64,000 nt of DNA. It comes from Streptomyces sp. 6-11-2 (GTDB lineage Bacteria > Actinomycetota > Actinomycetes > Streptomycetales > Streptomycetaceae). This document shows, piece by piece, positions 44,132-60,968 of the stretch. A program made the position numbers and the translations under genes. Each line of letters begins with the position of its first letter. The stretch's first letter is position 1. The DNA lies in the NCBI RefSeq assembly GCF_006540305.1, contig NZ_BJOR01000001.1, positions 2,914,001-2,978,000 on the forward strand, in the 5' to 3' direction. The notes under the pieces are model-generated. The model ran no database searches. It was not told the origin of the DNA and worked only from the letters and a program-made list of their open reading frames with translations.

Positions 44132-44917
44132 TCAGGTTGCGTACGCGCCGATCAGAACTCCCGTGAACGCCCCCGCGATCAGAAACGGCCCGAACGCGAT
44201 GGCCGTCTTGCGGCCGGCGCGCTGTACGACGACGAGCGCGCCGCCGTACAGCGCGCCGAACAGGAAACCGGCGAAGGTGCCCAGCAGGACGACGGGCCAG
44301 CCGTACCAGCCGAGGACGGCGCCCGCCCCGAGGGCCAGCTTCACGTCGCCGAACCCCATCCCGGCGGGGTTGACGAGGAACAGCACGAAGTAGCCGCCGC
44401 CGAGCGCGAGGGCGCCGTACAGCGCGGTCGGCCAGTGGCCGTCGTGTCCGGGAACCAGGGCGGCCAGGCCGAGGAGCGCGAGGGCGGCGCCCGCGAGGGG
44501 CAGGGTCAGCACGTCGGGCAGCCGCCGCACCCGGAAGTCGACCACCGCGAGCAGCACGCCGACCGGCGCGAGCAGCAACCAGACGGCGAGTTCGGGCCGG
44601 CCACCGGTGGCAGCGGCGAGCGCGCCGCAGACGAGAGCGGTGACGGCGGCAGCCGGCAGGGCGCGCGGGCCGTAGGAGGCGCGGTCGCGGACGGGAGTGG
44701 TGGCCGGGGCGTCGGCGGAGGCGGCGGCACACTGCCCGCACCGTCCGCGCCCGATCCAGCCCCGTACCGGATGTCCGCCCGGGCAGCGCTCCCGCCACGA
44801 CTCCCCCGACGGCACGGAGAACCGGTACGCGGCCCGCGGCAGCGACGCGCCCGCCACCGCGCCCCACAGCGCGGCGGCGGCGACCAGCGGCAGACCGGTC
44901 GACGGCACGGTGCTCAT
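44132..44917 (-). CDS. tadV: A24 prepilin peptidase (TadV-like)
   Basis: This 261-aa polytopic membrane protease cleaves Flp prepilins. The two catalytic aspartates are in VVDFRVRRLPD and GMGFGDVKLALG, both canonical for type IV prepilin peptidases. A Cys-rich segment (RCPGGHP.. RGRCGQC) before the membrane core recalls the zinc motif of PilD-type enzymes, although Flp-type peptidases usually lack it. ATG 44917 overlaps the regulator gene by 4 nt, so the two are coupled. It serves the Tad pilus locus at 50-57 kb. Confidence 0.9.
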   Translation of the reverse strand: MSTVPSTGLPLVAAAALWGAVAGASLPRAAYRFSVPSGESWRERCPGGHPVRGWIGRGRCGQCAAASADAPATTPVRDRASYGPRALPAAAVTALVCGALAAATGGRPELAVWLLLAPVGVLLAVVDFRVRRLPDVLTLPLAGAALALLGLAALVPGHDGHWPTALYGALALGGGYFVLFLVNPAGMGFGDVKLALGAGAVLGWYGWPVVLLGTFAGFLFGALYGGALVVVQRAGRKTAIAFGPFLIAGAFTGVLIGAYAT

Positions 44918-47889
44918 CCCGCCGCGGCGACGGCGCTGCGCCAGGCCGGCAGCAGTTCGTCGAGCAGGGCCTCGGTGCGCGGCGGCAGACCGCGGGCGCC
45001 GCCGCGGCCGACGAGGTCGGCGGCGAGCGCCTGGAGGCGGGCGGTGTCACCGGTGGCGTGCGCGGCGCGCAGCAGCTCGTTCCACAGGCGCTCGTCGGCC
45101 GGGGCGGTGCGCAGCGCGGCGTCCAGCGCCTCGATCGCCTTCTCCGCGCGGTCCTTCTCCAGGTGGAAGGAGGACAGGGCGAGCCCGATGTCCGCGACGA
45201 TGAGCGGCAGTTGGGCGTCGACGATCTCGTGGGTGAGCCACCGGTAGCGGCCCTCGGGCCGGTCGGCGAGCAGCGGTCCGCGCACCACCACCAGCGCGTC
45301 GGTGAGCAGCCGGCCGCGTACGGCCCGGCTGTCCGCGCCCTTGCCCTGTGTGGCCTCGTGGTACAGCGAGCGCAGCACGTCCAGGTCGGAGACGACGGAC
45401 TTGGCGAGGGTGAGCCGCCCGGTGTCGTCCGTACCGAGCCTGGGGGTGCCGTCGGGGTCGCTGCCGAGCCAGGAGCGCAGCCGCTCGACGAGCGCGTCCC
45501 GCACGTCGTCGGTGACCCCGCGCGGCCACAGCGCGGAGGACAGCACCCGCGGATGCACGCCCTCCCGGTGCAACAGCAGCAGTGCCAGCGCCTCGTGCAG
45601 CGGCGCGCTGCGTTCGTCGTCCGGGGTGTCGAGGCCGATGATCTCGTACGGGCCCACGAGCCGCGCGTACACCGCCGGCCGCCCCTGCTCGCTGATGTCG
45701 ACGAGGAACGGCGGGGTGGGCGCAGGACCGTCGGGCCCGCTCTCCGGGTCGGCCTCGACGAACAGCTCGACCACCGCCTGCTGTTCGGCCGACGGCAGCA
45801 TCTGGGCGTCGAGTTCGAGCCCGAGCAGTGGAGCGAGCAGCCTGCCCTCGCTGGTGATCTCCATCTCCCAGGCGGCGCCCGGCAGTTCGTCGGACTCGGT
45901 GCCGACGAGGTAGCCGATGCCCAACCGGCTGGCATCGGCGGCGAGTTCGGCGAGCCTACGGGCATCCTCGGCCGAGGGCTGAGCGGCCAGCAGCACCAGG
46001 TGCGGGGCCCAACGAGTGTGCTGGGCGGGCCCGGTGCGGCCGGTGAGCACGGAGTCGTGCCCGGCGGCGCCCAGCGCGCCGCGCCGCTGCCGCGTCTCGG
46101 CCTCCATGGTCTCGAGGAGCGCCTCGATGCCGTCGAGGTGGCGCAGGCGGCTGGGAGCCAGCGGGGTCAGGTCCTGACCGAAGCCGACAAGGGTGACGGT
46201 CATGCGATCCGACCAGCCGTTGGTGGCGAGTTCGGCCGCGACCGAGGCGAACACGGCGGCCCGGTCGGAGGCGCGGCCGCTCAGCGAGACGATGCCGGGC
46301 ACGGCCTCCAGGTTGAGCAGCAGGCGGGAGTCGTCCATGGTGCCGAGGCTGACGAGCCCGGGGTACGGGGCGGCGGTTTCGGTCTCCTCGTACTGCTCGG
46401 CTTCGGCGCGCGCCAGCATCCAGAACGTCTCGTCCTGCCCGGTCCGCCAGGGCGCGGGCGGCTTGCCGGCCGGCTGTGCGAGCTGGAGGTGCAGGTCGCC
46501 TCCGGTGAGCCAGGCGGCGTAGACGACGGGCAGCGGCCGGGACTCGGCGGCGAGGGCGGCGGCGAGGGCGCGCAGGGACCGGTCGAGCCGCCGTACGCCC
46601 TCGGGGTCGGCGCCCACCAGCAGCGCGTCCTGGACGTCCAGCGCGTCCCCGGTCGGCGTCGGCGGCTCCATGCCGCGCCGCCCGCCGACGGCACCGAGCG
46701 CCGACTGCCACAGCGCCTGCCGGCGCCGGTGACCGAGTGCGCCGAGGAGACCGGCGGCGAGGAGCGGGGCGCCGAGGAGGGCTTCGGGCAGTCCGAAGGA
46801 ACGCCCGGAGGAGGCGGGGGTGGCGGCGGTGGCGCCGTCGCCGGCGGGCCGCTGCCGGTCCTGCTCGGCGTCGGGGGCGGGCCGCTGGGCGGGTACGGAG
46901 GCGTGGGAGCCACCGCCCTGTTGATGGCCGCCGCCCTGCGCGTGGTCGCCTCCGCCCTGGGCGTGGTCGCCGGTCCTGGCGTAGTCGTGGATCTGCTGCC
47001 GCACCTGCTCGGAGACGTCCGGCGCGCCGTCGGGCATCTCGACGAGCTCACCGCCGTGCGCGTCCGCGGGCATCTCCATGATCCAGCCGGGCCGGATGAG
47101 GCTGGCCTCGGACAGCCGGGAGCCGTCGGGCTGGACCCGGTCCTTGTTGAGTTGGTAGATCTCCTTGTACCGGCGCCCGTCGCCGAGGTGCCGCTGGGCG
47201 ATCTCCCAGAGCGAGTCGTGGTGGCGTCCCTCGGGCGGCTGGATCCGGTAGTACTTCGTGTCGCCCTGCTTGGCCTCCGCCTGCGCGGCGGCACTCGCGG
47301 CCTGCTCGGCGACGGCCGCCGCGGTGTTCGCGGCCTGCTCCCGCTGCTGCCCGAACAGCCCGCCCGGCGTCTGCTGCGCGGCGGCGACGGTCCCCTTCTG
47401 GTTTCCCTCCAGGCCGTGCCCGAGCTGCGACAGCCCCGGCGTGAGGCTGGCGGCCGTGGCCCCGACGAGCAGCAGCGCGGCGACGAGTTGCCGCGCGAGA
47501 AGCTGGCTGGGGCCGGCGCCGGGAACCCGCCCCGGCACCCCGACACCGGACAGCGCGGCCTTCATCTCCACGAGCACACAGGCGGTGAACTGCGCCCAGG
47601 CGAGCCAGACGACGACCGTCAGGATGCTCAGGAAGGTCTGGACGGTGATCTCCTGCTGGAGCCAGTCCAGGCTCGGCACGCCGTGCGGGAGCGGCCACCC
47701 GAACTGCACGGCCAGCGCCAGCGGTACGCCGACGAGCAGGACGAGCAGGGCCAGGAAGGCGAGAAACGCCTTCACGAAGTCCCCGACCGTACGCCGCCGC
47801 ACCCGCACCGGCTGGGGCGTCCGGTTCCTCGGGGCCGTCGAGCCTCCCGTCGGGCTTCCCGTCGAGCTTGAACTACGGCGTCGCGGCAT
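44914..47889 (-). CDS. Membrane-anchored LysM/BTAD-domain regulator
   Basis: This 991-aa protein has an Arg-rich N-terminus, helices at ~37-62 and ~83-107, and another near 135-150, then a LysM-like segment (~210-280; HDSLWEIAQRHLGDGRRYKEIYQLN). After a low-complexity stretch and a long conserved middle region comes a SARP/AfsR-like end with a winged-helix-like part (LVGPYEIIGLD .. LHEALALLLLHREGVHPRVL) and a bacterial transcriptional activator domain, helical, TPR-like (LALSSFHLEKDRAEKAIEAL). It may link wall state to pilus gene expression. ATG 47889; the stop overlaps the prepilin peptidase start. Confidence 0.8.
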   Translation of the reverse strand: MPRRRSSSSTGSPTGGSTAPRNRTPQPVRVRRRTVGDFVKAFLAFLALLVLLVGVPLALAVQFGWPLPHGVPSLDWLQQEITVQTFLSILTVVVWLAWAQFTACVLVEMKAALSGVGVPGRVPGAGPSQLLARQLVAALLLVGATAASLTPGLSQLGHGLEGNQKGTVAAAQQTPGGLFGQQREQAANTAAAVAEQAASAAAQAEAKQGDTKYYRIQPPEGRHHDSLWEIAQRHLGDGRRYKEIYQLNKDRVQPDGSRLSEASLIRPGWIMEMPADAHGGELVEMPDGAPDVSEQVRQQIHDYARTGDHAQGGGDHAQGGGHQQGGGSHASVPAQRPAPDAEQDRQRPAGDGATAATPASSGRSFGLPEALLGAPLLAAGLLGALGHRRRQALWQSALGAVGGRRGMEPPTPTGDALDVQDALLVGADPEGVRRLDRSLRALAAALAAESRPLPVVYAAWLTGGDLHLQLAQPAGKPPAPWRTGQDETFWMLARAEAEQYEETETAAPYPGLVSLGTMDDSRLLLNLEAVPGIVSLSGRASDRAAVFASVAAELATNGWSDRMTVTLVGFGQDLTPLAPSRLRHLDGIEALLETMEAETRQRRGALGAAGHDSVLTGRTGPAQHTRWAPHLVLLAAQPSAEDARRLAELAADASRLGIGYLVGTESDELPGAAWEMEITSEGRLLAPLLGLELDAQMLPSAEQQAVVELFVEADPESGPDGPAPTPPFLVDISEQGRPAVYARLVGPYEIIGLDTPDDERSAPLHEALALLLLHREGVHPRVLSSALWPRGVTDDVRDALVERLRSWLGSDPDGTPRLGTDDTGRLTLAKSVVSDLDVLRSLYHEATQGKGADSRAVRGRLLTDALVVVRGPLLADRPEGRYRWLTHEIVDAQLPLIVADIGLALSSFHLEKDRAEKAIEALDAALRTAPADERLWNELLRAAHATGDTARLQALAADLVGRGGARGLPPRTEALLDELLPAWRSAVAAAG

Positions 47890-48139: not shown

Positions 48140-48781
48140 GTGGCCCGCCGCGCCCTACCCGTAACCGCCAGCGCACTCACCGCCATCGCGACCCTCACGC
48201 TGACCGCGTGCGGCGGGGGCGGGGACGCCAAGTCCGATGACATCAAGGGGGCAGACACGGGGGCGGCTACGCCTACGGTTTCGGCGTCCTCAGCCGCTGA
48301 CGCACAGCGTCCCGAGGTCACCATCCCGAGCAGCTTCCGGCTGACCTTCGCGAACTGGAGGAGCAGCGACCCCGACGAGCAGGCCGTCCTGAACGACGGC
48401 AAGGAGCAGCTGCGGGCCGGTTACGCAGCGATCATCGCGAACAACCCGGACAGCGAGGCCCTCGCCTTCTACGACACCAAGGCGGGCCTCTCCCAGGACC
48501 GTGAGTGGATCAAGTCGTACACGGGCAAGAACGTCACCGTCATCGGGGCGCTCCCCGTGTTCGACCCCAAGGTCGCGCTCTTCGCGAAGAACACGAAGGC
48601 CCAGCTCGCCTACTGCACGGACGAGAGCAACGCCCGTACGAAGAACCGGGAGACGGGCAAGGTCGTGGGCAATCCGGCAGGCATGGACCCCAAGGTCGCC
48701 TACACCGTCACCATGCAGAAGGACGGACAGGGTGTGTGGCAGACCGTGTCCACCACCTCGAAGAGGGGCGGCTGCTCCTGA
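48140..48781 (+). CDS. Lipoprotein of the paralogous Tad-flanking module (copy 1)
   Basis: This 213-aa protein has a lipobox LTAC at residues 21-24 (lipid-modified C24), a short Ser/Ala linker, then a ~150-residue exported domain with signature IPSSFRLTFANW, SEALAFYDTKAG and LPVFDPKVALFAKN, and two cysteines (LAYCTDES and the final GGCS) that could form a disulfide. It is clearly homologous to 57963-58619. The start is GTG 48140 with GGGGGAG upstream. The next gene begins at the last base of its stop (TGATG), so the two are coupled. No family name is recognised. Confidence 0.8.
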   Translation: MARRALPVTASALTAIATLTLTACGGGGDAKSDDIKGADTGAATPTVSASSAADAQRPEVTIPSSFRLTFANWRSSDPDEQAVLNDGKEQLRAGYAAIIANNPDSEALAFYDTKAGLSQDREWIKSYTGKNVTVIGALPVFDPKVALFAKNTKAQLAYCTDESNARTKNRETGKVVGNPAGMDPKVAYTVTMQKDGQGVWQTVSTTSKRGGCS

Positions 48782-49860
48782 TGTCGCGGCCCACCGGCAT
48801 CGTGGCCGTGGCTCTCGCATCGGCCGTGGCGGTCACCCTCTCCACCACGTCGGCTCACGCCTTCGGCGAAGGCAACACCAAGAACAACGGCAAGAGCAGC
48901 GCCAAAGGGAACGCCGGTGGCGACGGAAGCCTTTCGGCCTCCGTCTCCAATATCCGGATCACTTACGTGAGCGGCGGAAACGGCAGGGGCAAGCAGGGCA
49001 ACCTCGGTACCGTGGACCCCAACTGGAAGCCCCCCGCCTGCTGGTACGAACCGGCCTTCACCCCGGCCGGACTCAAGAAGTTCGTGGACACGGACGGCGG
49101 GGGCGACGTCGGCATCCACGAATCATGGTTCGGCAAGGAACTGTGGACGGACCACTACCGCGACGGCAAACCCGCGGACAACTTCGACCTCCACTCACCG
49201 ACCAACAGCAGCGCCGACGGCTACAAGGACTACAACCTCGACCAAAAGGGCTACTTCTGGCGCGGCGTCGCACCCGACCCCGCCGACCCGGCCTCCTGGG
49301 ACTGCGGCCGCGTCATGTTCTGGGTCGACGCGGGCAGACTCCCGAACGACCCGAACACCCCCACCCCCAAGACACTCGCCGAGTACGCCTACAACAAGGT
49401 CAAGGTCCCCGAGACGGAGATCGAGCTCAAACCGCAGGCGAAGTCCACGGTGAATCTCCCGACCTGGGCCTGGCTGGACAAGGGCACCTTCAAAGAGGTC
49501 AAGGTCAGGGCCGACCTCCCGAACACCGGCCTGTGGGCCGAGACCACGGCCAAGCCAGTAGCCCTCCACCTCAACCCGGGCACGGAGGACGCCGAGACCT
49601 ACCCGTCCTCCGGCGACTGCACGATCAACGACGACGGCTCGATCGGCACCCCGTACGCGAAGGGCAACGCGGACAAGACCCCGCCGTGCGGCATCAGGTA
49701 CCTCCGCGCCACGAACGGACAGCCGTACCGCCTCAAGGCATCGATCACCTGGCAGATCACCTGGCAAGGCACCGGCGGCGCCAAGGGCGACCTCCCCGAC
49801 GGCACCTTCGAGACGACCCAGGACATGAACGTCCAGGAAATCCAGTCGATCAACCGCTGA
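48781..49860 (+). CDS. Secreted four-cysteine protein of the Tad-flanking module (copy 1)
   Basis: This 359-aa protein has a Sec signal peptide (1-28, ending TSAHAF), a Gly/Asn/Ser-rich linker and a conserved domain. The recurrent blocks, shared with 58607-59650, are PPACWYEP, KDYNLDQKGYFWRG, LPTWAWLD, TAKPVALHLNPG, DAETYPSSGDCTINDDGSIG, PPCGIRYLR and a closing VQEIQSINR. Four cysteines are at equal places in both copies. The function is unknown; co-transcription with a lipoprotein and location beside the pilus operon suggest a surface complex. Confidence 0.8.
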   Translation: MSRPTGIVAVALASAVAVTLSTTSAHAFGEGNTKNNGKSSAKGNAGGDGSLSASVSNIRITYVSGGNGRGKQGNLGTVDPNWKPPACWYEPAFTPAGLKKFVDTDGGGDVGIHESWFGKELWTDHYRDGKPADNFDLHSPTNSSADGYKDYNLDQKGYFWRGVAPDPADPASWDCGRVMFWVDAGRLPNDPNTPTPKTLAEYAYNKVKVPETEIELKPQAKSTVNLPTWAWLDKGTFKEVKVRADLPNTGLWAETTAKPVALHLNPGTEDAETYPSSGDCTINDDGSIGTPYAKGNADKTPPCGIRYLRATNGQPYRLKASITWQITWQGTGGAKGDLPDGTFETTQDMNVQEIQSINR

Positions 49861-49909
49861 GACGGGCCCGGCCGCAGCCTTCGCCATCTTCCTCGACTCC
49901 CTCACATCG

Positions 49910-50499
49910 TCAGAGTGAGAGCGTCTTCGCGATGTCGTCGGCCATCTGCTCGGCCGGCTCGCCAGGACCGGTTCCGTCCAGGAGACCAGCATCGTGAGGG
50001 CCGTCTCCATGCCGTCCGGGCGGACGCCGTAGAACACCGTGTGGACCACCGGGCGGGGGCCGAAGAAGCCCTTCTTCTCGCCGATGAGGTTCTGGCGGAT
50101 GCGGACGGCGTCGCCGAGGGGGAGCCGTACCTCGCGTACGTCCGGTTCGCCGAAGTCGTGGCTCGCCATGTGCTCGGCCAGCAGCGAGAGGGAGACCTCG
50201 GGGAACGCCTCGTCGGGGTGGATGGCGTCGAGTTCCATGATGGCCGCCACCGTCTCGTGACCGCTCACGTACCAGCCGAAGGCCGCCAGCGGATCGCGGG
50301 TGTAGCAGTCGGCGACCGTGCGCTTGAGGCTCCGGGCCAGGCGGCGGGCGTCGCCCGGCGCACCGTCCTGCGCGTATCGCTCGGCGAGTTCCTGGCCCTG
50401 TTGCTTGGCCCAGGAGTCCAGGTCCACGCTCCCGGCGGCGGGGAAGGGCAGCCAGTCCTCCGAGAACTCCAGGCCGAGGTTCGAGAGGTCGTCGGTCAT
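49910..50499 (-). pseudogene. Conserved Tad-locus protein with 3' frameshift
   Basis: The frame from ATG 50499 encodes a ~180-aa soluble protein (LEFSEDWLPFPAAGS, CYTRDPLAAFGWYVSGHE, VRLPLGDAVRIRQNLIGEKKG) ending with LVSWTEPVL. There, near 49958-49965, the frame runs on into sequence that is only antisense of the neighbouring secreted-protein gene, for another ~250 codons. A single missing base restores a natural end, EPAEQMADDIAKTLSL and a TGA at 49910-49912. The protein family is unknown to me; it is the last gene of the pilus operon. Sequencing error is the main alternative. Confidence 0.7.
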
Positions 50500-50566
50500 G
50501 CTGTCGGTCACTCCGTCCAGGTAGGCGAGTCGGCGATCGCGTCGAAGAGCCACGCTGATGAATGCG

Positions 50567-51049
50567 TCACCCCACCTCGTTCCTGGCCACGGCCCGACCG
50601 TGGACGGCCACGTTGCCGCCGTAGAACATGCCGGTGAAGACGGGCGAGTACGTCAGCTGGATCTCGACCTGTACCTGGTCGGCGTCGGCTGCCACGCAGT
50701 GGCTCGCGGCGATGTCGGCGCCCGTCATGCTCACCTCCCGGGCGAAGGCCTTCACGCGGGCGTCGCAGTTCTCGTAGTTGATCGGGGCGGGGCCGCCCTC
50801 GTTGTCGTAGAGGGCCTCGCGGTCGATGTCCTGGGCGGCGTAGCGGGCCGCCTGTTCCGCTATGTCCGCGGCTCGTTCGCGCTTGGAGATGGACAGGCCG
50901 CCGTCGATGACGAAGGCGGACAGGGCGAGGAAGACCAGCGCGAAGATGATGACCGCGCCGGCGCCCGAGCCGCGGTCGTCCAGTGCCGTGGCCCGGGTGG
51001 ACCACCAGGTGCGCACGCGATCGGCCGCGGCGGCGCTCACGTTCCTCAC
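50567..51049 (-). CDS. tadG: TadG/TadE-like pilus assembly protein
   Basis: This 160-aa bitopic membrane protein has a basic N-terminus followed by GSGAGAVIIFALVFLALSAFVIDGG, the TadG-type helix, and then a periplasm-like domain. Its shorter-than-usual length (most TadG are over 300 aa) suggests the minimal actinobacterial form. GTG 51049 overlaps the preceding tadE stop by 4 nt. Probably a pseudopilin-like or anchoring component of the Flp pilus. Confidence 0.82.
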   Translation of the reverse strand: MRNVSAAAADRVRTWWSTRATALDDRGSGAGAVIIFALVFLALSAFVIDGGLSISKRERAADIAEQAARYAAQDIDREALYDNEGGPAPINYENCDARVKAFAREVSMTGADIAASHCVAADADQVQVEIQLTYSPVFTGMFYGGNVAVHGRAVARNEVG

Positions 51050-51474
51050 GCCGACCTCCGGAAGGGGTCCAGCGGCGAACTGAAGCTCGCGGACAGCCGC
51101 GTCGGGATGTTCAGGCCCAGTGACGCCAGGCCGCGCACCTGGCAGCTGACCTCGACGGTGAACAGGGTGTCGGGGGCGAAGCCCGCGCTCGTCTGCACCA
51201 CCGAGACCGGCCCCGTGCAGACGTCGGCCAGGTCCGCCTCCGCCGCCTTGCGCGCCTCGGACATGGCCGTCGCATGGTCCTTCTGGATGGAGCCCGCTCG
51301 TGCCGCGTCCCGTGCCGCGCCGTCGACCGCGCCGCGGCCCTCGACGAGTTGGCCGAAGGCCACCAGCACCAGGATGAACAGGATCATCACCGGGGCGAGG
51401 ATCACGACCTCCACGGTGGACAGGCCGCCGTCGTCACGGGCGGACGGAAAAGACGGCCGGGAAGAGCGGTTCAT
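51046..51474 (-). CDS. tadE: TadE-like pseudopilin 1
   Basis: This 142-aa protein has the TadE signature DDGGLSTVEVVILAPVMILFILVLVA: a class of prepilin-like helix with conserved Glu after the small-residue stretch. The C-terminal extracytoplasmic part holds two cysteines (VCTGPVS, VEVSCQV). ATG 51474 directly follows the stop of the other tadE gene (TAGATG). It is presumably processed by the A24 peptidase or anchored unprocessed, as is known for TadE proteins. Confidence 0.85.
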   Translation of the reverse strand: MNRSSRPSFPSARDDGGLSTVEVVILAPVMILFILVLVAFGQLVEGRGAVDGAARDAARAGSIQKDHATAMSEARKAAEADLADVCTGPVSVVQTSAGFAPDTLFTVEVSCQVRGLASLGLNIPTRLSASFSSPLDPFRRSA

Positions 51475-51948
51475 CTAGTTTCCGTCCTCCCGCACGAACC
51501 TCTCCACCGGCCCCGAGGACTGCGCGTGCACCGTCAGGTTCAGGCCCGGGAACACCGTCGGGATCCGCGCCGAGATCTCCACGCCCACGGTGTTCTGCTC
51601 CGGTTGCAGCATCTTCACGTCCGGCGACAGCACCAGTTGCGGGCCCAGCTGGCGGATGTAGGCGTCGACGACGTTCCGCGCCTCGCCCCGCCAGGCGCCG
51701 GGCTGCTCGTCGGCCGTGGCGCGGGCCTTGCGGGCGCCGGCCTGGGCCGCCGCCTGGGCGACGTGGTCGGCGAAGAAGTACAGCGCGAACTGCACCGTCG
51801 CAAAGATCATGAAGAACAGTACGGGGGTGAGCAGCACGAACTCGATCGCGGTCATCCCGCGGTCGCCGCCGGTGGCCGCCGCCTCACGCGCGGCCCGCAC
51901 CCTGCGGCGTACCGCGCGTCGCACCCGTCCGCCCACGTCCGCCAGCAT
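51475..51948 (-). CDS. TadE-like pseudopilin 2
   Basis: This 157-aa protein has an Arg-rich N-terminus and the TadE/TadF-type helix GMTAIEFVLLTPVLFFMIFATVQ, including the conserved Glu at the pilin-like +5 position, then an extracytoplasmic domain with no cysteines. The ATG at 51948 is chosen because GGACGGGG sits just before it; further upstream the frame is repetitive. It is separated from the flp gene by 110 nt containing short tandem repeats. Confidence 0.83.
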   Translation of the reverse strand: MLADVGGRVRRAVRRRVRAAREAAATGGDRGMTAIEFVLLTPVLFFMIFATVQFALYFFADHVAQAAAQAGARKARATADEQPGAWRGEARNVVDAYIRQLGPQLVLSPDVKMLQPEQNTVGVEISARIPTVFPGLNLTVHAQSSGPVERFVREDGN

Positions 51949-51970
51949 CCCCGTCCACCCCGTCGCGCTT

Positions 51971-52058
51971 CCTCGCCGTACGTGCGTCGTACGTGCACGC
52001 GTCCTACGTACGCTCGCCGTACATGCACTCGCCGTGCGTGCCCTCGCCGTACGCCCGG
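51971..52058. repeat. Short direct repeats between flp and tadE
   Basis: TCGCCGT recurs at exact 15-bp spacing (52014, 52029, 52044) within units like TCGCCGTACATGCAC, and looser CGTACGTGC copies lie at 51973-52010. This is the only sizeable non-coding gap in the pilus operon. Function unknown; it could contain an RNA processing or attenuation site that separates abundant pilin from downstream genes. Confidence 0.6.
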
Positions 52059-52310
52059 TCAGCAGGTCTTGCCCGCGTCCGCGCCCTTGATGCAGTCGCC
52101 CACCTTGTTGGCGCCCTCGCTCAGCGCCGAGTTGATGATGGCGGCCACCACGCCGACGATCGCCACGACGACCGCGGAGATGATGACCCACTCGACCGCG
52201 GAGGCACCACGGTCCAGTTCGCCGGAGCGGGCGCGCTGCACACGGCCGCCCAGGAAGGTGACCAGGAAGTCCACGGTCGGGATCCCGATGTGGAAGTCTC
52301 GTCCGTTCAT
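52059..52310 (-). CDS. flp: Flp-type pilin
   Basis: This 83-aa small pilin has a basic, hydrophilic leader of ~35 residues, then GASAVEWVIISAVVVAIVGVVAA, the Flp hydrophobic helix with the conserved Glu after the cleavage region, and a short C-terminus with two cysteines (GDCIKG, GKTC) that could be disulfide-linked. The leader is long for a Flp pilin, as in other actinobacteria. ATG 52310; 56 nt after the tadC stop. It is the probable major structural subunit of the pilus. Confidence 0.87.
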   Translation of the reverse strand: MNGRDFHIGIPTVDFLVTFLGGRVQRARSGELDRGASAVEWVIISAVVVAIVGVVAAIINSALSEGANKVGDCIKGADAGKTC

Positions 52311-52366
52311 GACAGTCGTTTCCTCTCGAATTCAGGGCAGTTGGCAGGGTCTGGCAGGGGCGGCGC

Positions 52367-53290
52367 TCACACCTGGAACACCCGCATCGCCGCCGGGAAG
52401 ATCAGGAACACCAGGAAACCCGCGCACAGCAGCAGCTGGGCCACGAGCATCGACTGGGACTTCTCGCCCGCGCTGCCCTCGATCTCGGCCAGTTCGCGGT
52501 GGCGCATGGTCTCGGCGCGCGAGGCGAGCGACTCGCGCACCTTCGCGCCGTCGTCCGCGACCAGGGCCAGGGAGGCCGAAAGATCCTTCAGCTCCTCCAC
52601 GCCCAGCTCCTCGCCGAGCTGCCCGAGCGCCTGCCACTGGCTGATGCCGGTGATCCGGGCGTCGGCGAGGGCGTTGCGGATCCGCTGGTTCGCCCAGCCG
52701 TCGGACACCTCGGCCGCCGCCATCAGCGCCTCCGGCAGACCACGGCCGCCGGCCAGGCTCATGGACACCAGGTCCAGATACGCGCCGATGACCCGGCGCA
52801 GGTCACGGCGCTTGTCGGCCGCGTCCCGCCGGATCTCCAGATCGGGCAGGAAGAAGAACAGCGCCGCGCACAGCAGCGCCAGCCAGACCGGGATGACCGG
52901 GCTGCGGCCGAAGCCCAGCGAGTAGACCACGGCGAACAGCAGCGGACCGAAGAACAGCCCCGCGACCGACAGCAGCACCTTCGTCGCGAGGAACCTCTCC
53001 CAGCTGCGCTCCAGCACCGCGAGATCGGCGCGCAACGAGCGCTGTTCCCAGCCCTGCTGAAGGTAGAACTCGGCGACGCGAGCGCCGACCTGGGCGCGGA
53101 ACGTACCGAATCGGCCCGTCTCCTCCCGGGTCTGGTGCCGCGTCTCGTACGCCGCGCCCCGCGCCCGCATCGCGTCGATCCGCGCGACCTGCGCGACCGC
53201 GCTCCGCCTGGACGGCATCAGGGCGCGTACGAGGGCGTAGACGCCGAGGCCGAGGACCGCTCCGACCACGACCGGCATCGTCAGGTTCAC
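52367..53290 (-). CDS. tadC: Tad platform protein TadC (T2SS GspF family)
   Basis: This 307-aa inner-membrane platform protein has a single N-terminal helix (VVVGAVLGLGVYALVRAL), a paired central helix around LLSVAGLFFGPLLFAVVYSLGFG, a cytoplasmic F domain (YLDLVSMSLAGGRGLPEALM) and a final helix AQLLLCAGFLVFLIFPAAM. With TadB it forms the pilus assembly platform turned by TadA. The GTG start at 53290 overlaps the tadB stop by 4 nt. Confidence 0.9.
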   Translation of the reverse strand: MNLTMPVVVGAVLGLGVYALVRALMPSRRSAVAQVARIDAMRARGAAYETRHQTREETGRFGTFRAQVGARVAEFYLQQGWEQRSLRADLAVLERSWERFLATKVLLSVAGLFFGPLLFAVVYSLGFGRSPVIPVWLALLCAALFFFLPDLEIRRDAADKRRDLRRVIGAYLDLVSMSLAGGRGLPEALMAAAEVSDGWANQRIRNALADARITGISQWQALGQLGEELGVEELKDLSASLALVADDGAKVRESLASRAETMRHRELAEIEGSAGEKSQSMLVAQLLLCAGFLVFLIFPAAMRVFQV

Positions 53291-54255
53291 CGGCGTACCC
53301 CTTCCTCCTGCTGGGCGGGTGTGCGCGGCCGTACGAACTGGACCGCCGCCTCGTCCCGCACCAGGAAGCGTTCGGGCGTCTCGATCGTGGACAGCTTGCG
53401 CAGCCACCAGAAGCCGAGCGCGAACAGACCGCAGACGACCGCGAGGACCAACTGGCCGACCGGGGTGCCGTACGGCGACACGAAGTCGCGGTTGAAGACG
53501 GACAGTCCGAGCACGAAGGCGACGGAGACGGCGACGACGATCTGCACCGAGCGTCGGGTCGAGGCCCGCTGGGCCATCACGCGCTGACGCATGTCGACCT
53601 CCTCGCGCGACGACTTGGCCAGTGCGCCGAGGACCTGGCGCAGACCGGGGCCGCGCAGCCGGGCATTGAGGATGAGCGCGGCGACGATGATGTCGGCGGA
53701 GGCGTCGTCGATCTCGTCGGCGAGCAGTTGCAGCGCCTCGGGCAGCGGAGTGCGGGCGCGCAACCGGTCGACCAATGCGTCCAGATGGGGCCGCAGGACC
53801 GGGGCGGCGGCGCGCGCCGAGGCCGGGATGGCCTGCTCCAGGCCGACCGCGCCGGCGATCGTGTCGCGCAGCGACTCCGTCCAGGAGGCCAGGGCCTCCA
53901 CACGGCGCATCGCGGCCCGTTCCTCCGCGGCACCGCCGAAGAGGCGGTCCCAGAAGAAGACGAGGACACCGGCCGCGATCCCGGCGACCGCCCACCGGGT
54001 GAGCAGCAGGACGGCGAGGCCGACGAGAGCGGCGACGGAGCCGCGCTGCCCGGCGAAACGGAGCAGTTCGCTCGCCCGCCGACTCGCCCGCTGCTTCTCG
54101 TGCTCGGGCTTGGGGGGCAGTCCGCGTACGGCGACGACCAGCAGGGCGAGACCGCCGCCGACGGCGACGCCGGAACCGATCGAGTACAGCACGGTGGTGG
54201 AGAACAGGCCCCCCATGGAGCCGAGCGGGGCCAGTGCGGCAGACGTCATGGTCAC
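53287..54255 (-). CDS. tadB: Tad platform protein TadB (T2SS GspF family)
   Basis: This 322-aa membrane protein has two N-terminal helices (VLYSIGSGVAVGGGLALLVVAV; GSVAALVGLAVLLLTRW), the cytoplasmic F domain (SWTESLRDTIAGAVGLEQAI .. LPEALQLLADEIDDASADI) and a C-terminal helix pair. It is the partner of TadC. ATG 54255 overlaps the tadA stop by 4 nt, and its own stop overlaps tadC. Confidence 0.9.
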   Translation of the reverse strand: MTMTSAALAPLGSMGGLFSTTVLYSIGSGVAVGGGLALLVVAVRGLPPKPEHEKQRASRRASELLRFAGQRGSVAALVGLAVLLLTRWAVAGIAAGVLVFFWDRLFGGAAEERAAMRRVEALASWTESLRDTIAGAVGLEQAIPASARAAAPVLRPHLDALVDRLRARTPLPEALQLLADEIDDASADIIVAALILNARLRGPGLRQVLGALAKSSREEVDMRQRVMAQRASTRRSVQIVVAVSVAFVLGLSVFNRDFVSPYGTPVGQLVLAVVCGLFALGFWWLRKLSTIETPERFLVRDEAAVQFVRPRTPAQQEEGVRR

Positions 54256-55559
54256 CCCCAGGTTCCGTGGGGCTGGTAACCGTGCGCCATGAGGTCCTCC
54301 AGGCAGGCTATGGGCGCGTGCGGCACGACCCGGCCGTCGGGCGTTTCGGCGAACACCTCGCTGGACAGCACGCGGCCGTCGACGCCGTTGACCTCGCGGA
54401 CCGAGGTCACCATGCGCTGAAGCCGGCCGCCGGTCTGGAAGTTGTTGCGCCGCTGGATGAAGACGACGAAGTTCACCGCGCCCGCGATCAGCATCTGGCT
54501 GGCCTCGATGGGCAGCCGCTCCGTCGCCTGCAACGCGTAGGTGGAGATGCGGTTGAAGACCTCGCTGGAGCTGTTGGCGTGGATCGTGGACAGCGAGCCG
54601 TCGTTGCCCTGCGACATCGCGTTCAGCATGGTCACGATCTCGTCGCCGAGCACCTCGCCGACGATGACGCGGGAGGGGTTCATACGGAGGGACCGACGCA
54701 CCAGCTCGGCCATGGAAATGGTGCCCTGGCCCTCGGAGTTGGGCAGCCGTTCCTCGAACGCCACCGCGTTGGGGTGCAGTTCAGGGAAGGTGTCCAACCC
54801 GAGCTCCAGCGCCCGCTCGACCGTGATGAGCCGCTCGTGCGGCGGGATCTCGTTGGCGAGGGCGCGCAGCAGTGTCGTCTTTCCGGCGTTCGTGGCGCCC
54901 GCGATCATGATGTTCTTGCGGGCGCGGACCGCGCAGGCCAGGAAGTGCCCCAGCTCCGGCGCGAGCGTGCCGTTGCCGACCAGGTCGGAGATGAACACCT
55001 TGCCCATCCGGGCCCGGCGGATGGACAGCGCGGGCCGGCGGGTCACGTCCATGACGGCCGACAGACGCGAACCGTCCGGCAGCCGCAGGTCGAGCTGCGG
55101 GTTGGCGGAGTCGAAGGGGCGGGACGACAGGCCCGAGTAGGCGCCGAGCACCTGGATGAGCTCGATCAGCTCCTCGTCGGTCTCGGCGACCGGCTCGCCC
55201 TTGACCTCGCGCCCGTCGGCGTATCCGACGAACACCTGGTCGCAGCCGTTGATGTCGATGTTCTCGACCTGCGGGTCGTCGAGCAGCGGCTGGAGCCGGC
55301 CGACGCCGAACAGCGCCGCGTGCACGGCGGCCGCGTACTGCTCCTCGGTCTCGGCGTCCAGCGGCGTACGGCCCGCGTTGATCTCGGCGCGGGCGTACTC
55401 CTCCAGTATCTGCGCTATGACCGCGCGGGCGTACTGCCGCTCGTCCTCGCCGGACATCGGCGTGACGCCGTTGACCTGGTCGAGTCGGCGCTGCTCCGCG
55501 ATGCGGTCACCGGCGTCCTGCCGGAACCGCTTGACCAGCTGGTGATCGACAGCCGTCAT
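54252..55559 (-). CDS. tadA: Tad pilus assembly ATPase TadA (CpaF)
   Basis: This 435-aa secretion ATPase has an N-terminal domain to ~180, then Walker A GATNAGKTT at residues 221-229, the Asp/Glu box in RALELGLDTFPELHPN, Walker B SRVIVGEVLGDE, and a conserved His box STIHANSS. It powers assembly (and in some species retraction) of Flp pili. ATG 55559 overlaps the tadZ stop by 4 nt, and its stop overlaps tadB. Confidence 0.93.
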   Translation of the reverse strand: MTAVDHQLVKRFRQDAGDRIAEQRRLDQVNGVTPMSGEDERQYARAVIAQILEEYARAEINAGRTPLDAETEEQYAAAVHAALFGVGRLQPLLDDPQVENIDINGCDQVFVGYADGREVKGEPVAETDEELIELIQVLGAYSGLSSRPFDSANPQLDLRLPDGSRLSAVMDVTRRPALSIRRARMGKVFISDLVGNGTLAPELGHFLACAVRARKNIMIAGATNAGKTTLLRALANEIPPHERLITVERALELGLDTFPELHPNAVAFEERLPNSEGQGTISMAELVRRSLRMNPSRVIVGEVLGDEIVTMLNAMSQGNDGSLSTIHANSSSEVFNRISTYALQATERLPIEASQMLIAGAVNFVVFIQRRNNFQTGGRLQRMVTSVREVNGVDGRVLSSEVFAETPDGRVVPHAPIACLEDLMAHGYQPHGTWG

Positions 55560-56548
55560 CGCCCGGCTCCTGGCTGACCATTCGTGTGGGGCTGGTACGG
55601 CTGCTGGGCCTGGGGCATCTGCTGACCCTGGGCCGCTTGCTGCGCTTGGGCCGCTTGCTGGGCTTGGGGAGCCTGTTGCGTCTGGCGGGCTTGCTGAACC
55701 TGGTGGGCCTGCTGCGTTTGGTGGGCTTGTTGCGCCTGTGCGGATACGGCCCAGGCGGCACCGTACTGCTGGTACAGGTCGGCGGCGACCTTGCGGGCCG
55801 AGCGGATCAGCAAGGACTTGTCCAGGCGGCCGCGCCTGCGCCCGGCCAACTGCTCGGCGCCCGCCGGGTCGTCGGCGATGGTGCCGACGACGCGGGCACC
55901 GGTCTGGGCGTGCACCAGCATGTCGTTGACCTGACCGGAGACCTTGCCCGCGGTGTTCGGGTCGGCGACCAGGACGACGCCGACCACCGGGGTCGCCAGG
56001 CTCGCGGCACCGCGCGGGCCGCCGTGCAGCTTCGCGGACAGCGCGGCGGCGCGGTCGCGGACGCGGGCGATGGCCTCCGGCTCGGTGCGCGAGATCAGCA
56101 GCAGGAGGGAGGCGTGCGGGAACAGTTCCACGGCGGGGGTGTCCCCGCTGATCCGGCCGCAGTCGGCGATGACGTCGGCGGGCGCGCTCGGGGAGTCGGC
56201 GAGCGAGGCGAAGGCGTGCCCCAGGGTGGGCCACAGGCCGGCGAGACCGGCGGCCTGCTCGGCGATGCCGAGCCCGACGAGGACCTCCAGGCCGCCGTTC
56301 AACGGCTGTACGTGATCCCAGAGTTGGTCCGGCACGAGTCCGCGGCGCGCGGTCGCGGCGATGGACAGCATGCCGACGTTCGGGTTGAGCGGCCCGCCGT
56401 GGGCCGCGGCGCTGCGGTAGACGAGGTCACCGCCGGCCGGGTCCGTCTCGGCGAGCAGCACGCGCCGCGGCCAGACGGCGGCCAGCGCGACGGCGGCGGT
56501 GGTGACGCCGGGCGAACCCTTGTCGGCGGCCAGTGCGATGAGGGCCAT
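55556..56548 (-). CDS. tadZ: TadZ/CpaE-type ParA-like ATPase with Q-rich tail
   Basis: This 330-aa MinD/ParA-fold protein opens with LAADKGSPGVTTAAVALAA, a deviant Walker A lacking the second lysine, and LLAETDPAGGDLVYR (switch I, Asp). TadZ proteins place the Tad machinery at its cell site. The last ~70 residues are a Gln/Ala-rich tail built of AQQAHQTQQAHQVQQ-like heptads, unusual for the family and likely disordered or coiled. ATG 56548, 16 nt after the cpaB stop; overlaps tadA by 4 nt. Confidence 0.85.
   Translation of the reverse strand: MALIALAADKGSPGVTTAAVALAAVWPRRVLLAETDPAGGDLVYRSAAAHGGPLNPNVGMLSIAATARRGLVPDQLWDHVQPLNGGLEVLVGLGIAEQAAGLAGLWPTLGHAFASLADSPSAPADVIADCGRISGDTPAVELFPHASLLLLISRTEPEAIARVRDRAAALSAKLHGGPRGAASLATPVVGVVLVADPNTAGKVSGQVNDMLVHAQTGARVVGTIADDPAGAEQLAGRRRGRLDKSLLIRSARKVAADLYQQYGAAWAVSAQAQQAHQTQQAHQVQQARQTQQAPQAQQAAQAQQAAQGQQMPQAQQPYQPHTNGQPGAGR
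55593..55741. repeat. Gln/Ala-coding short repeats in tadZ
   Basis: The stretch consists of variants of CTGGGCCTG/CTGTTGCGC triplet-rich units on the plus strand, giving the AQQAHQ-type tail of TadZ. It is a probable length-variable region. Confidence 0.65.
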
Positions 56549-56564
56549 GGATGCGCTGCCGCCC

Positions 56565-57281
56565 TCAGTTGCCGGGAACGACGACGACGGCGACGGAACC
56601 CACGGACGCGGCCTGGGCGACGGCGGCGGCGTCGGACTGGTCGACGAGGAGGGTGAGCGACAGGTTGCCGGTGCTCACGGCGGCGTCGCCGTTGTCACTC
56701 TTGGAACTGACGCGCGCCTTGTCGACGATGAGGCTGCCGCCTGCGGACGTGCCCGTGGAACCGCTGCCGGAGTTGGAACTCGACGCGTGGTCGCCGACGC
56801 GGTAGACGGCGACGATGTCACCGTTCTTGATGTCCGCCGGGTACTGGCCCTCCTTGAGAGCGACTCCGACGAAGGCCTTGCCGTCCGGCAGGCTGCTCTT
56901 CGCGCCGAACATCTGCCCCATCACGACCGTGTCCGCGTAGATGGTGGACTTGGCCTTGAGGGTCTTGAGGGTGCCCAGTTTGACCCACGGGATGTAGTTG
57001 ATGGAGTCGTCCGCGGCCACCATCACCGAGGTCACGTCATCGGAGGTGACGGACTCTCCGGCCGGGATGTCCTTCGTCACCTTGACGACCTCGATCCGGT
57101 CCCCGGCCTGGAGCACGAGCATCGTGGCGCCCAGCGCGCCCACCAGGATGAGCAGCACCGCCAGGGCCGCGAGCGCCGGTTTGCGCTCGCGAGGCGATGT
57201 GGGAAGCCGGTCACCGACCGTCGGCTGAGCCGGAGCCGCGGCGCGTCCCGCGCCCGCCCCCGTACGCTCCTGGATCTTCAC
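56565..57281 (-). CDS. cpaB: CpaB/RcpC-like SAF-domain pilus protein
   Basis: This 238-aa protein is membrane-anchored by a helix at ~34-58 (ALAALAVLLILVGALGATML) followed by a SAF domain (VVKVTKDIPAGESVTSDDVTSV), as in CpaB/RcpC proteins of Tad pili, which sit outside the membrane and stabilise the pilus channel; here it lacks an outer membrane to act on. A Ser/Gly-rich insert lies at ~165-180 (SSSNSGSGSTGTSAGG). GTG 57281. It is the first gene of the pilus operon, so the promoter lies in 57282-57962. Confidence 0.85.
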   Translation of the reverse strand: MKIQERTGAGAGRAAAPAQPTVGDRLPTSPRERKPALAALAVLLILVGALGATMLVLQAGDRIEVVKVTKDIPAGESVTSDDVTSVMVAADDSINYIPWVKLGTLKTLKAKSTIYADTVVMGQMFGAKSSLPDGKAFVGVALKEGQYPADIKNGDIVAVYRVGDHASSSNSGSGSTGTSAGGSLIVDKARVSSKSDNGDAAVSTGNLSLTLLVDQSDAAAVAQAASVGSVAVVVVPGN

Positions 57282-57962
57282 GCAACCGCTCCCCGTACAC
57301 CCAAGATGTCGTCTGCCAAGCTCTTTGCCTGGGCTGCAAACCCGGACACTTCACCAGCGATCCGGGCGATGTCGCGGCTATCCGGCGCGGTGTCGAGTGT
57401 CAAGCCATCGCACGGTATCAGCCGCACATAAGCCCCTCAAGGCGAGTCAGGCCCCGTGGTCCACGGCTGACTTGACGTTATCCGTCAGCAACTCGGGCAT
57501 AAGCCTGACCCCATGGGGTGCGACCGAATTACAGTCAAGCCAGTGTGCGACCGCGAACCCGTCGTCACGGTGACCCTCTGGAGTCCCGGCTCACGCCTGG
57601 CCCGCGACCACTGGGAACGCACCATGCCTGCACGAATTGCTCACAAGGGAGCGGATCAGTCATGCCGTGATCTTCCCCATGAAGCAAGCACCACTGACTT
57701 TGACCGGCTCTGAGCTGGTCGCCGTCGCGCTGCCCGCCTGCTTGAACGATGCAGAGGACATCGCCGCCGCCGACAAGGCGACCGCCCCGCCGTGACCCAC
57801 TGGCACCGCCGCCACTGGGCCGATCAGGCTGCGCTGCATCACACCTTGGCAGCAAGAAGTCCGAAATTGACCTACCCGGAGAGGGGCCCGGCTTGGCGGA
57901 AGCAACCGCAGCACCGATACCGTCGAACTCCCTGACTAACTCAGTGCTCACGGGGAGTCACA
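57282..57962. other. Divergent intergenic region before cpaB and lipoprotein copy 2
   Basis: No certain gene is seen. It must contain the pilus-operon promoter (leftward) and the promoter of the lipoprotein module (rightward). One short frame, ATG 57679 to TGA 57795 (38 codons), could be a remnant or a small protein but has no recognisable family or RBS. GC content drops here compared with the pilus genes. Confidence 0.45.
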
Positions 57963-58619
57963 GTGAAGCGACGCTCTTTGCCCGTTGCTGCCGCGCTCGT
58001 CGCAGCCGCAGCCTTGTTGACGACGGCTTGCAGTGGCGGAGGCGGCAACTCCAAGGCCGACGACGCGATCCCGGGCGCCGACACCCGCGGTACCCAGGCG
58101 TCGCCATCGCCCAGCGCTGACACTTCGGACGAGCCTCATCGACCAGACATCACGCTGCCCGGCGACGTCAAGGACGTCTTTGAGGGATGGCATACCGGCA
58201 ATCCGACCAATGACGCCATCCTCGCCGATGCCGGCCGTGCGCAGACTGCCACCAACTACGCAATCATCAAGGGGAACCCCGACGAACCGGCTCTCGCGTT
58301 CTACCGGCAGGGGAACGCACTCGTCGGCGGCGCCAAGTGGGTCAAGTCCTTTGTGGATGCTGGGATCACCTACACGGGCACTGTGCGGTACTTCAACCCC
58401 GACGTGATCATCTACAGCAAGACCTCGGCAGGGGTGACGTTCTGCACGGATGAAACGAAGGCGTTCAACAAGGACACGAAGACGCAGAAGGTCGACAGGA
58501 CGCCCCCGGACAGCGACTCGTACGTCTACTACAACACGCACCTGAAGCGGAACAAGGACGGCGTCTGGCAGACCACGGAGCTCGTTTCCGACAGGGGGAA
58601 CGCGAAGTGCACGCCGTGA
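57963..58619 (+). CDS. Lipoprotein of the paralogous Tad-flanking module (copy 2)
   Basis: This 218-aa exported protein has a lipobox-like TTAC at 20-23 (C23) and a domain homologous to 48140-48781: RPDITLPGDVKDVFEGW, EPALAFYRQGNA, TYTGTVRYFNPDVIIYSKT, FCTDETKAFN and a final NAKCTP with the same two cysteines. Identity is partial, so the duplication is old. GTG 57963 with GGGGAG upstream. The downstream gene starts inside its 3' end (13-nt overlap), repeating the coupled arrangement of copy 1. Confidence 0.8.
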   Translation: MKRRSLPVAAALVAAAALLTTACSGGGGNSKADDAIPGADTRGTQASPSPSADTSDEPHRPDITLPGDVKDVFEGWHTGNPTNDAILADAGRAQTATNYAIIKGNPDEPALAFYRQGNALVGGAKWVKSFVDAGITYTGTVRYFNPDVIIYSKTSAGVTFCTDETKAFNKDTKTQKVDRTPPDSDSYVYYNTHLKRNKDGVWQTTELVSDRGNAKCTP

Positions 58620-59650
58620 GGTTGCACCACGCGGGGGCTGCTGTCGGCATGCTTGCCGCTGCATGCCTGCTGGTCTCGAGCCCCGCCTACGCGAAGCGCG
58701 GTCCGGGCGGTTCCGACGGCGGCGCGAAGACGTCGGGGACAAGATCGGGGAACACGCTTGAGTCACGCATCACCTATTCCAACCGCATGGGTGGGGTCAA
58801 CGGCACCTCGACAGGCAACGTAGCCCCCATCGGCAATTGGAACCCGCCCGCGTGCTGGTACGAACCCGTGTCAGCCAAGGATTTCCAGAACCAGGTCGAG
58901 AGCCAGTACGCCGAGGTCGTCAACGACCCACGGCAACCCAACTATGCCAAGGCGGCGACGGGCCAGTTCCGGAACACCTACAAGGATGACAAGTACAAGA
59001 ACTACAATCTTGACAAGGCCGATGAAGGCAACTGGTGGGTAGCAGTCCAGGACCCCAACCGCCTCGACGACCCAGGCGCGTTCACCTGTGACAAGCTGCC
59101 TTTTTGGGTCCAAAACGGCGACACGCCGGCCGTGCAGAACGCCATCACGCCACAGGTCCTCGCGGAACTCGCCTACAGCAGAATCCTGCTCCCCGACACC
59201 AAGGTCACCCTCGCACCCCAGAACGTGACCAAAGTCAACCTCCCGACCTGGGCGTGGCTTGACCCGTCCGCGTTCAAGCCGGTCCAAGTGACCGCTTCCC
59301 TCAACGTGGCCGGCCTCAACATCCAGGCGACGACCACCGCCAAGCCGGTCTCCCTCAAGCTCCAGCCCGGAACCGCTGACGCAGAGACCTACCCCGCCTC
59401 GGGTGAGTGCTCGATCAATAACGATGGTTCGATCGGCGAGTCATACACCAGGGGCAAGTCCGACCAAGCACCACCTTGCGGAATCAAGTACCTCCGGTCC
59501 TCCGGCAACGGAACGTACAACCTCAAAGCGACCATCACCTGGCGGATCAACTGGACCGGCACCGGCGGCGCCGGCGGAGAGCTTCCCGATGGCACCTTCG
59601 GGGCGACACAGAACGTCACCGTCCAGGAGATTCAGTCCGTCAACCGTTGA
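58607..59650 (+). CDS. Secreted four-cysteine protein of the Tad-flanking module (copy 2)
   Basis: This 347-aa protein has a signal peptide (to ~29, VSSPAYA) and the same domain as 48781-49860: NPPACWYEP, KNYNLDKADEGNWW, FTCDKLPFWV, LPTWAWLDPSAF, TAKPVSLKLQPG, DAETYPASGECSINNDGSIG, PPCGIKYLR and VQEIQSVNR. The four cysteines are preserved. GTG 58607 is the first in-frame start; GTG 58616 is an alternative. Lower GC than copy 1. Function unknown. Confidence 0.8.
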   Translation: MHAVRLHHAGAAVGMLAAACLLVSSPAYAKRGPGGSDGGAKTSGTRSGNTLESRITYSNRMGGVNGTSTGNVAPIGNWNPPACWYEPVSAKDFQNQVESQYAEVVNDPRQPNYAKAATGQFRNTYKDDKYKNYNLDKADEGNWWVAVQDPNRLDDPGAFTCDKLPFWVQNGDTPAVQNAITPQVLAELAYSRILLPDTKVTLAPQNVTKVNLPTWAWLDPSAFKPVQVTASLNVAGLNIQATTTAKPVSLKLQPGTADAETYPASGECSINNDGSIGESYTRGKSDQAPPCGIKYLRSSGNGTYNLKATITWRINWTGTGGAGGELPDGTFGATQNVTVQEIQSVNR

Positions 59651-60841: not shown

Positions 60842-60968
60842 GCATTGCGTGCACATCGCTGTCCGCGTCGTTTTCCTGATTCGTAGCATGACAAGCGCAC
60901 GTAGGGTATGAGGCCCACCCGCGGCCACTCCGGTACCAGCGGGACAAAGGACTTTAGGGGGACCGAAC

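Follow-up and report, generated by a model that had tools for sequence, protein, structure and literature searches.

A lipoprotein and secreted protein gene pair associated with tad pilus operons in Streptomyces and other actinomycetes

Introduction

Among Tad/Flp (type IVc) pilus machines, the RcpC protein of Pseudomonas aeruginosa is described as a dodecameric periplasmic conduit (PMC12307814). According to the available text of a review, monoderms lack RcpB, RcpC, TadD, and the secretin, and how type IV pili pass across the thick monoderm wall is an open question (PMC6916266). In Bacillota, the type VII secretion systems (T7SSs) T7SSg and T7SSh, with an EssC-type ATPase and WXG100 proteins, are reported to lie always beside tad genes, and the authors leave undecided whether this adjacency is functional or coincidental (PMC11217815). 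The main text of the same study names T7SSd as its sole new Actinomycetota type and does not contain the word Streptomyces. In Myxococcus, the Tad-like Kil apparatus is tied to contact-dependent killing, and whether Kil secretes a toxin is left undecided in the accessible part of that report (PMC8460266). Here, we describe LipA-SecB, a lipoprotein and secreted protein pair encoded twice around the tad operon of Streptomyces sp. 6-11-2, in a stretch of 64,000 nucleotides (contig NZ_BJOR01000001.1, positions 2,914,001 to 2,978,000; hereafter the window).

Among the literature titles and abstract openings covered, a scope outside which most subscription journals fall, none concerns Streptomyces Tad pili or LipA-SecB, and the terms 'lipoprotein' and 'secreted protein' are absent from the available text of a paper on the Tad system of Micrococcus luteus (PMC4322843). 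We argue that LipA and SecB probably make up an extracytoplasmic component, so far undescribed, of the Tad machines of actinomycetes, one that Streptomyces would have enlisted for a T7SS-like toxin system.

Two LipA-SecB pairs flank the tad operon

The tad operon of the window lies on the minus strand between two LipA-SecB pairs on the plus strand, which bears out an earlier, sequence-only reading of paralogous lipoprotein and secreted-protein modules on both flanks. Pair 1 (48140-49860) consists of LipA1 (48140..48781), a lipoprotein with the lipobox LTAC, and SecB1 (48781..49860), a secreted protein with four conserved cysteines. Pair 2 (57963-59650) comprises the second paralogues LipA2 (57963..58619) and SecB2 (58607..59650). 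The translational coupling proposed for both pairs is evident from overlaps of 1 bp in pair 1, where the SecB1 ATG and the LipA1 stop TGA have one base in common (TGATG), and of 13 bp in pair 2. SecB1 and SecB2 are 43% identical (E 3e-87) and LipA1 and LipA2 39% (E 2e-44), similarities far beyond chance that indicate paralogy of both proteins.

The motifs cited in the sequence-only reading (PPACWYEP, LPTWAWLD, DAETYP, and PPCGI) occur in both SecBs. Three of the four SecB cysteines (C87, C280, and C303 of SecB1) never vary in an alignment of 107 SecBs, and the fourth, C175, has a conservation of at least 90%. Among 87 aligned LipAs (LipA2 numbering), C161 and C216 are invariant, as are the lipobox C23 and W202. 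A permissive lipobox pattern matches 95/110 LipA calls; the strict pattern is matched by LipA1 and LipA3 and not by LipA2. Nor does any described family account for the pair, as that reading had supposed: no family scores above cut-off in Pfam searches with LipA1, LipA2, SecB1, and SecB2 or in NCBIfam searches with LipA1, SecB1, and SecB2. For this family, a single search with a threshold of E ≤ 0.001 lists at least 1,720 matches. Members carry the database name 'enoyl reductase' and plasmid relatives that of 'ATP/GTP-binding protein', misleading names that the identification of LipA-SecB would correct.

A third pair (G000:C1:4367257-4368932) is located 1.4 Mb from the window, so that the genome has three strong places each for LipA and SecB. 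No tad, WXG, or toxin profile matches in the 18 kb surrounding the third pair, and the sole TadA match of the genome at E ≤ 1e-60 is the window's own.

Integrity of the pair

The sequence-only reading held that the two proteins are encoded together, and this is borne out in public loci. The set comprises 77 named loci chosen by similarity to SecB, and is biased in that respect, with 103 distinct SecB copies after removal of duplicates by the last 60 residues. All 77 loci are from Streptomyces, with identities of up to 81%. LipA lies directly 5' of SecB on the same strand in 93/97 copies away from contig edges (median gap 2 bp). The other four copies have no called LipA in that position; at least one of them (L019) has a LipA that was missed by the gene caller, which was home-made and misplaced some starts. 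In the reverse direction, 15/110 LipA calls have no SecB 3' of them.

Several irregular copies were noted. Additional LipA genes without SecB are found at L018, L024, and L072. Partial or split SecB copies (G008:C1:5736659 and 5767360; G012:C60:10435; G022:C60 and C126; G009:C7:504426) suggest birth and death of copies, and several lie at contig ends or close to tad or to further copies. Pairs that stand alone, in loci without a tad gene (L063, L068, L069, L073, L076, L078), have a recurring neighbourhood with several of a group of genes of about 519-522, 75, 150, 322-339, and 707-733 aa.

Co-occurrence with tad

The proposed link to the Flp pilus is not accidental, as homologues do not lie mostly away from tad loci. 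This conclusion comes from a search for SecB and TadA across actinobacterial genomes, and the co-occurrence held in both a genus and a class sample. The genus sample consisted of 41 evenly drawn Streptomyces genomes (SecB at E ≤ 1e-10, TadA at E ≤ 1e-60). SecB is present in 15/41 genomes and TadA in 15/41, and these are the identical 15 (Fisher 1.6e-11, kinship ignored; the genomes are related, and all co-occurrence statistics were made without a species tree). Twelve of the 15 carry a type 1 tad operon like that of the window (TadA at least 86% identical), and three carry only the distant type 2 (TadA 40-51%). Of the 51 SecB matches, fragments included, 30 are within 25 kb of TadA. SecB precedes CpaB in two type-2-only genomes (G001, G023); in the third (G036), a fragment resembling SecB stands before CpaB, and a pair is found on a different contig.

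The class sample comprised 148 genomes from 67 genera and was searched with a type-2 SecB profile, few candidates per genome being scored in the first pass. At E ≤ 1e-5, the profile matches 51/148 genomes and 21/67 genera. SecB (E < 1e-8) is found in 46/148 genomes and TadA (E ≤ 2e-100) in 48/148, with both in 41. Locus reading revealed the pair in four of the seven genomes scored as TadA only (G082, G140, G158, G167). Among the five scored as SecB only, two have a divergent tad beside the pair (G132, G141) and two have no tad nearby (G084, G114); the fifth is G151. The pair abuts a tad operon at 15 of the 20 class-level SecB loci that were read. LipA was recognized beside SecB in 15/20, and four of the remainder have an unrecognized small gene there. 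At 51 TadA places there is no SecB match within 15 kb; among the 20 read (two on short contigs), the pair is present in 6 and not found in 14, of which three have a LipA-like gene alone and one a weak SecB-like match.

The pair is also found on named linear plasmids of S. albidoflavus, Curtobacterium, and Kitasatospora, at the start of the operon or between tadG and a large operon-end gene, and profiles match both genes; SecB2 has matches in 47 plasmid records. In the window, pair 1 occupies the same slot, inverted, between tadG and the gene for a 991-aa BTAD-domain protein (44914..47889, minus strand), whose homologues stand at the tadG end of tad operons. The gene in this place is annotated as a LysM protein in two named plasmids.

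All of the evidence is comparative, and it establishes the association of the pair with Tad. The association is not universal, and this counts against assigning LipA-SecB to the Tad machine. The stricter proposition that the pair is always beside tad is rejected: for 21/51 SecB matches of the genus sample, fragments included, TadA is either over 25 kb away or on a different contig, and at 4/20 class-level loci the pair has no tad within about 7-8 kb. The third pair and other stand-alone pairs away from tad would also fit chance clustering of common Streptomyces surface proteins. That explanation is extremely improbable, already contradicted by the identical presence pattern in the 41 genomes and by the place of the pair within tad operons of other genera and of plasmids.

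WXG toxins and the EccC-like ATPase

In some cases, an extra pair is followed by a WXG100-like gene and a gene for a toxin of the T7SS-signal or RHS kind. A WXG gene is directly 3' of SecB in 14/103 copies, and a toxin gene is found within two genes in 14/103; the order lipA-secB-WXG-toxin occurs at L056, L066, L080, L088, and others. About 4-8 kb past the window end is a gene for a divergent EccC-type ATPase (G000:C1:2981627-2986108), with FtsK stretches and a stretch matching PF16697, which we read as FHA-like. The link to WXG toxins and to this ATPase goes beyond the sequence-only reading. With 13 candidates scored per genome, the ATPase was found in 18/41 genomes: 12/12 with type-1 tad, 0/3 with type 2 only, and 6/26 without tad (12/12 versus 6/29 others, Fisher 2.4e-6, kinship ignored). 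In 11/12 type-1 genomes, the exception being G010, the ATPase gene and tad are no more than 40 kb apart, and the two share a 20-kb stretch at 9/20 TadA places read.

The gene order and the ATPase counts would suit a model in which the pair belongs to a T7SS-like toxin system, as a surface conduit, receptor, or WXG-toxin chaperone, and is near tad only through a common island. So would the divergent T7SS_signal matches, of which 59 were found (15 in tad-less and 44 in tad genomes); 20/44 of the latter have SecB within 5 kb or TadA within 30 kb. However, the three type-2-only genomes have SecB and lack the EccC-like ATPase, and 28 type-2 and class-level loci contain no WXG, toxin, or EccC profile match. 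Moreover, the 26 tad-less genomes include six with the ATPase and all have EccB, yet none has SecB. By these counts, the pair in this sample follows Tad with or without the ATPase, and the ATPase without Tad is not accompanied by the pair. We therefore regard membership in the toxin system alone as unlikely and prefer a Tad component that was later recruited.

The canonical T7SS (ESX, T7SSa) is rejected as the partner because EccB, which every one of the 26 tad-less genomes has, is missing from six tad genomes. These six, the window genome among them, all have type-1 tad; the other 9/15 tad genomes have EccB. The tad-side EccC-like gene scores below the TIGR03924 cut-off. Two genomes without any EccB match hold a separate EccC above the curated cut-off (G008:C1:2898236, G038:C1:9520416).

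The notion that such toxins occur only with tad is likewise rejected, with 15/59 divergent T7SS_signal matches in tad-less genomes and 24/44 of those in tad genomes near neither SecB nor TadA by the distance limits above. The partial, divergent class occurs in 10/15 tad and 7/26 tad-less genomes. T7SS_signal at E < 1e-20 is found in 19/41 genomes, of which only G029 has tad.

Exchange of LipA alleles

At the position beside the BTAD gene, 30 pairs from public loci were compared with the copy in the window. BTAD (71-87% identity) and SecB (60-85%) are conserved, and LipA identity is bimodal, with 8 sequences at 57-80%, 2 at 44-45%, and 20 at 22-30%. Two classes of BTAD-side LipA were defined, with 20 and 11 sequences, the window included; LipAs below 170 aa and SecBs below 280 aa were left out. 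LipA1 belongs to class 2. The classes have the signal peptide, lipobox, and linker in common, and their mature domains are highly diverged. At least nine class changes are required on a BTAD tree of 25 rows, one row with both LipA classes being uncounted. Five comparisons between the classes gave a DNA identity of 63-93% up to codon 40 of lipA, a fall to about 31-58% from there to codon 25-45 or so of secB, and higher values beyond; two same-class controls have no such trough. The pattern looks like repeated exchange of a cassette.

Covariation of SecB with the LipA class is strongest at residues 20-37 (of 382 columns tested, 7 have z > 5) and weaker at residues 2, 192, and 209. A recombination tract explains this covariation as well as an interface does. 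Two tandem pairs, L078 and L021, combine similar SecBs with very different LipAs (distances of 0.07 versus 0.53 and 0.22 versus 0.72), as gene conversion of SecB or replacement of LipA would produce.

A bimodal LipA between conserved BTAD and SecB, the class changes, and the identity trough might also be expected of a variable surface determinant, for self-recognition, immunity, or as a phage receptor, that rides with Tad, with LipA as specificity module and SecB constant. The 15 LipA calls without a following SecB would fit as well. However, the pair is not simply immunity, because it also occurs in tad operons around which no WXG or toxin profile matches; a toxin immunity protein is rejected on the same ground, and in WXG operons the pair stands 5' of the WXG gene. 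We consider a variable surface determinant quite improbable.

Predicted folds and proposed role

The fold predicted for LipA2 is NTF2-like, with helices on a curved beta sheet, and matches solved members of that superfamily in structure; by homology, the mature domain of LipA1 is expected to be NTF2-like as well. Sequence identity to the NTF2-like envelope scaffolds named among the matches is 6-16%. TadD is a tetratricopeptide repeat (TPR) protein. LipA as a TadD pilotin is rejected, given its NTF2-like predicted fold and the finding that neither LipA1 nor LipA2 matches a TPR or any other Pfam model. We know of no Tad counterpart of SecB. The C-terminal domain of SecB (residues ~207-354 of SecB1) is tentatively predicted to be PKD-like. 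At E ≤ 0.1, type-2 SecBs match the Pfam PKD models PF18911 (4/20 members) and PF00801 (2/20), with a best E of 4.6e-6, and these models have no match in SecB1 and SecB2 of the window. SecB profiles searched against the sequences of solved structures yielded nothing useful. Foldseek returned no match for SecB1 at E ≤ 0.001, nor a convincing one for its N-terminal half, which was folded as part of the whole protein.

In the proposed role, a lipid anchor would hold LipA at the outer membrane face, the side facing the cell wall, where LipA would present its NTF2-like domain. SecB would be secreted and held by LipA in a complex, perhaps via its short N-terminal tail, and would carry its PKD-like domain, with conserved cysteines that may form disulfides, into the cell wall. 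Beside CpaB/RcpC, the two proteins could serve as a wall-side scaffold or guide of the Flp pilus and stand in for the outer-membrane parts RcpA, RcpB, and TadD that are absent in monoderms. In Streptomyces, extra copies would have been recruited into WXG/T7SS-signal toxin operons beside the EccC-like ATPase, and a recruited pair may tie the toxin system to the pilus. This step from envelope scaffold to toxin coupling is speculative.

The toxin-operon link hints that pilus and toxin-export machine may work together. In its boldest form, the Tad pilus and the divergent EccC-type exporter would be one contact-dependent toxin delivery machine, with LipA-SecB joining each WXG/RHS toxin to the pilus as an adaptor and the exchangeable LipA domain setting specificity. 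We hold such a hybrid weapon to be doubtful; if true, it would be for Actinomycetota what the unexplained co-location of Tad with T7SSg/h is for Bacillota. That co-location makes toxin coupling worth testing (PMC11217815).

Other genes of the window

All genes of the tad operon are on the minus strand. Between the pairs are TadG-like (50567..51049), TadE-like (51046..51474), and second TadE-like (51475..51900) genes, a small Flp-type pilin of 83 aa (52059..52310; assigned by position, size, and sequence, with no Pfam match), TadC (T2SSF, 52367..53290), TadB (T2SSF, 53287..54255), the TadA/CpaF ATPase (T2SSE, 54252..55559), a CpaE/TadZ-like gene (55556..56548; assigned by position, with no Pfam match), and a CpaB/RcpC-like gene with a SAF domain (56565..57281). 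The BTAD protein and a TadV-type prepilin peptidase (Peptidase_A24, 44132..44917, minus strand) are located beyond pair 1.

An open reading frame (ORF) at 49915-50553 (minus strand), between SecB1 and TadG, belongs to a family with 11 matches in the SecB-recruited public loci, often beside WXG toxins. The gene looks broken because its frame continues into the antiparallel SecB1 (ORF 49195-50553), and it is perhaps a remnant of a toxin module. Beyond pair 2 are three unclassified ORFs on the plus strand (60149-60841, 60969-61802, and 61839-62381). Those in 60149-61802 have no Pfam match, and their relatives are found together or singly beside pairs at L061, L068, L069, L073, L076, and L090.

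Comparison with known systems

LipA-SecB resembles components of the Tad/Flp machinery (RcpC/CpaB, RcpA, TadD, RcpB) in its place in the same operons, often beside cpaB, and in its probable extracytoplasmic location. It differs in that LipA is predicted to be NTF2-like, whereas TadD is a TPR pilotin. NTF2-like scaffolds are found in VirB8, TrwG, and TraM of type IV secretion systems and in ARC6 and PARC6; LipA differs from these as a lipoprotein that has SecB for a partner gene product. The window contains a CpaB gene, although the monoderm Tad system as reviewed has no RcpC (PMC6916266). Kil is likewise a Tad machine, but it is diderm, and neither WXG toxins nor such a pair is mentioned in the accessible part of its description (PMC8460266). 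In contrast to T7SSg and T7SSh of Bacillota, the association described here is in Actinomycetota, and one gene pair occurs in both tad and WXG-toxin operons. LipA-SecB supplies two concrete genes, in a genus that has laboratory strains, for the question of how pili cross the monoderm wall (PMC6916266) and for a functional tie between T7SS and tad (PMC11217815).

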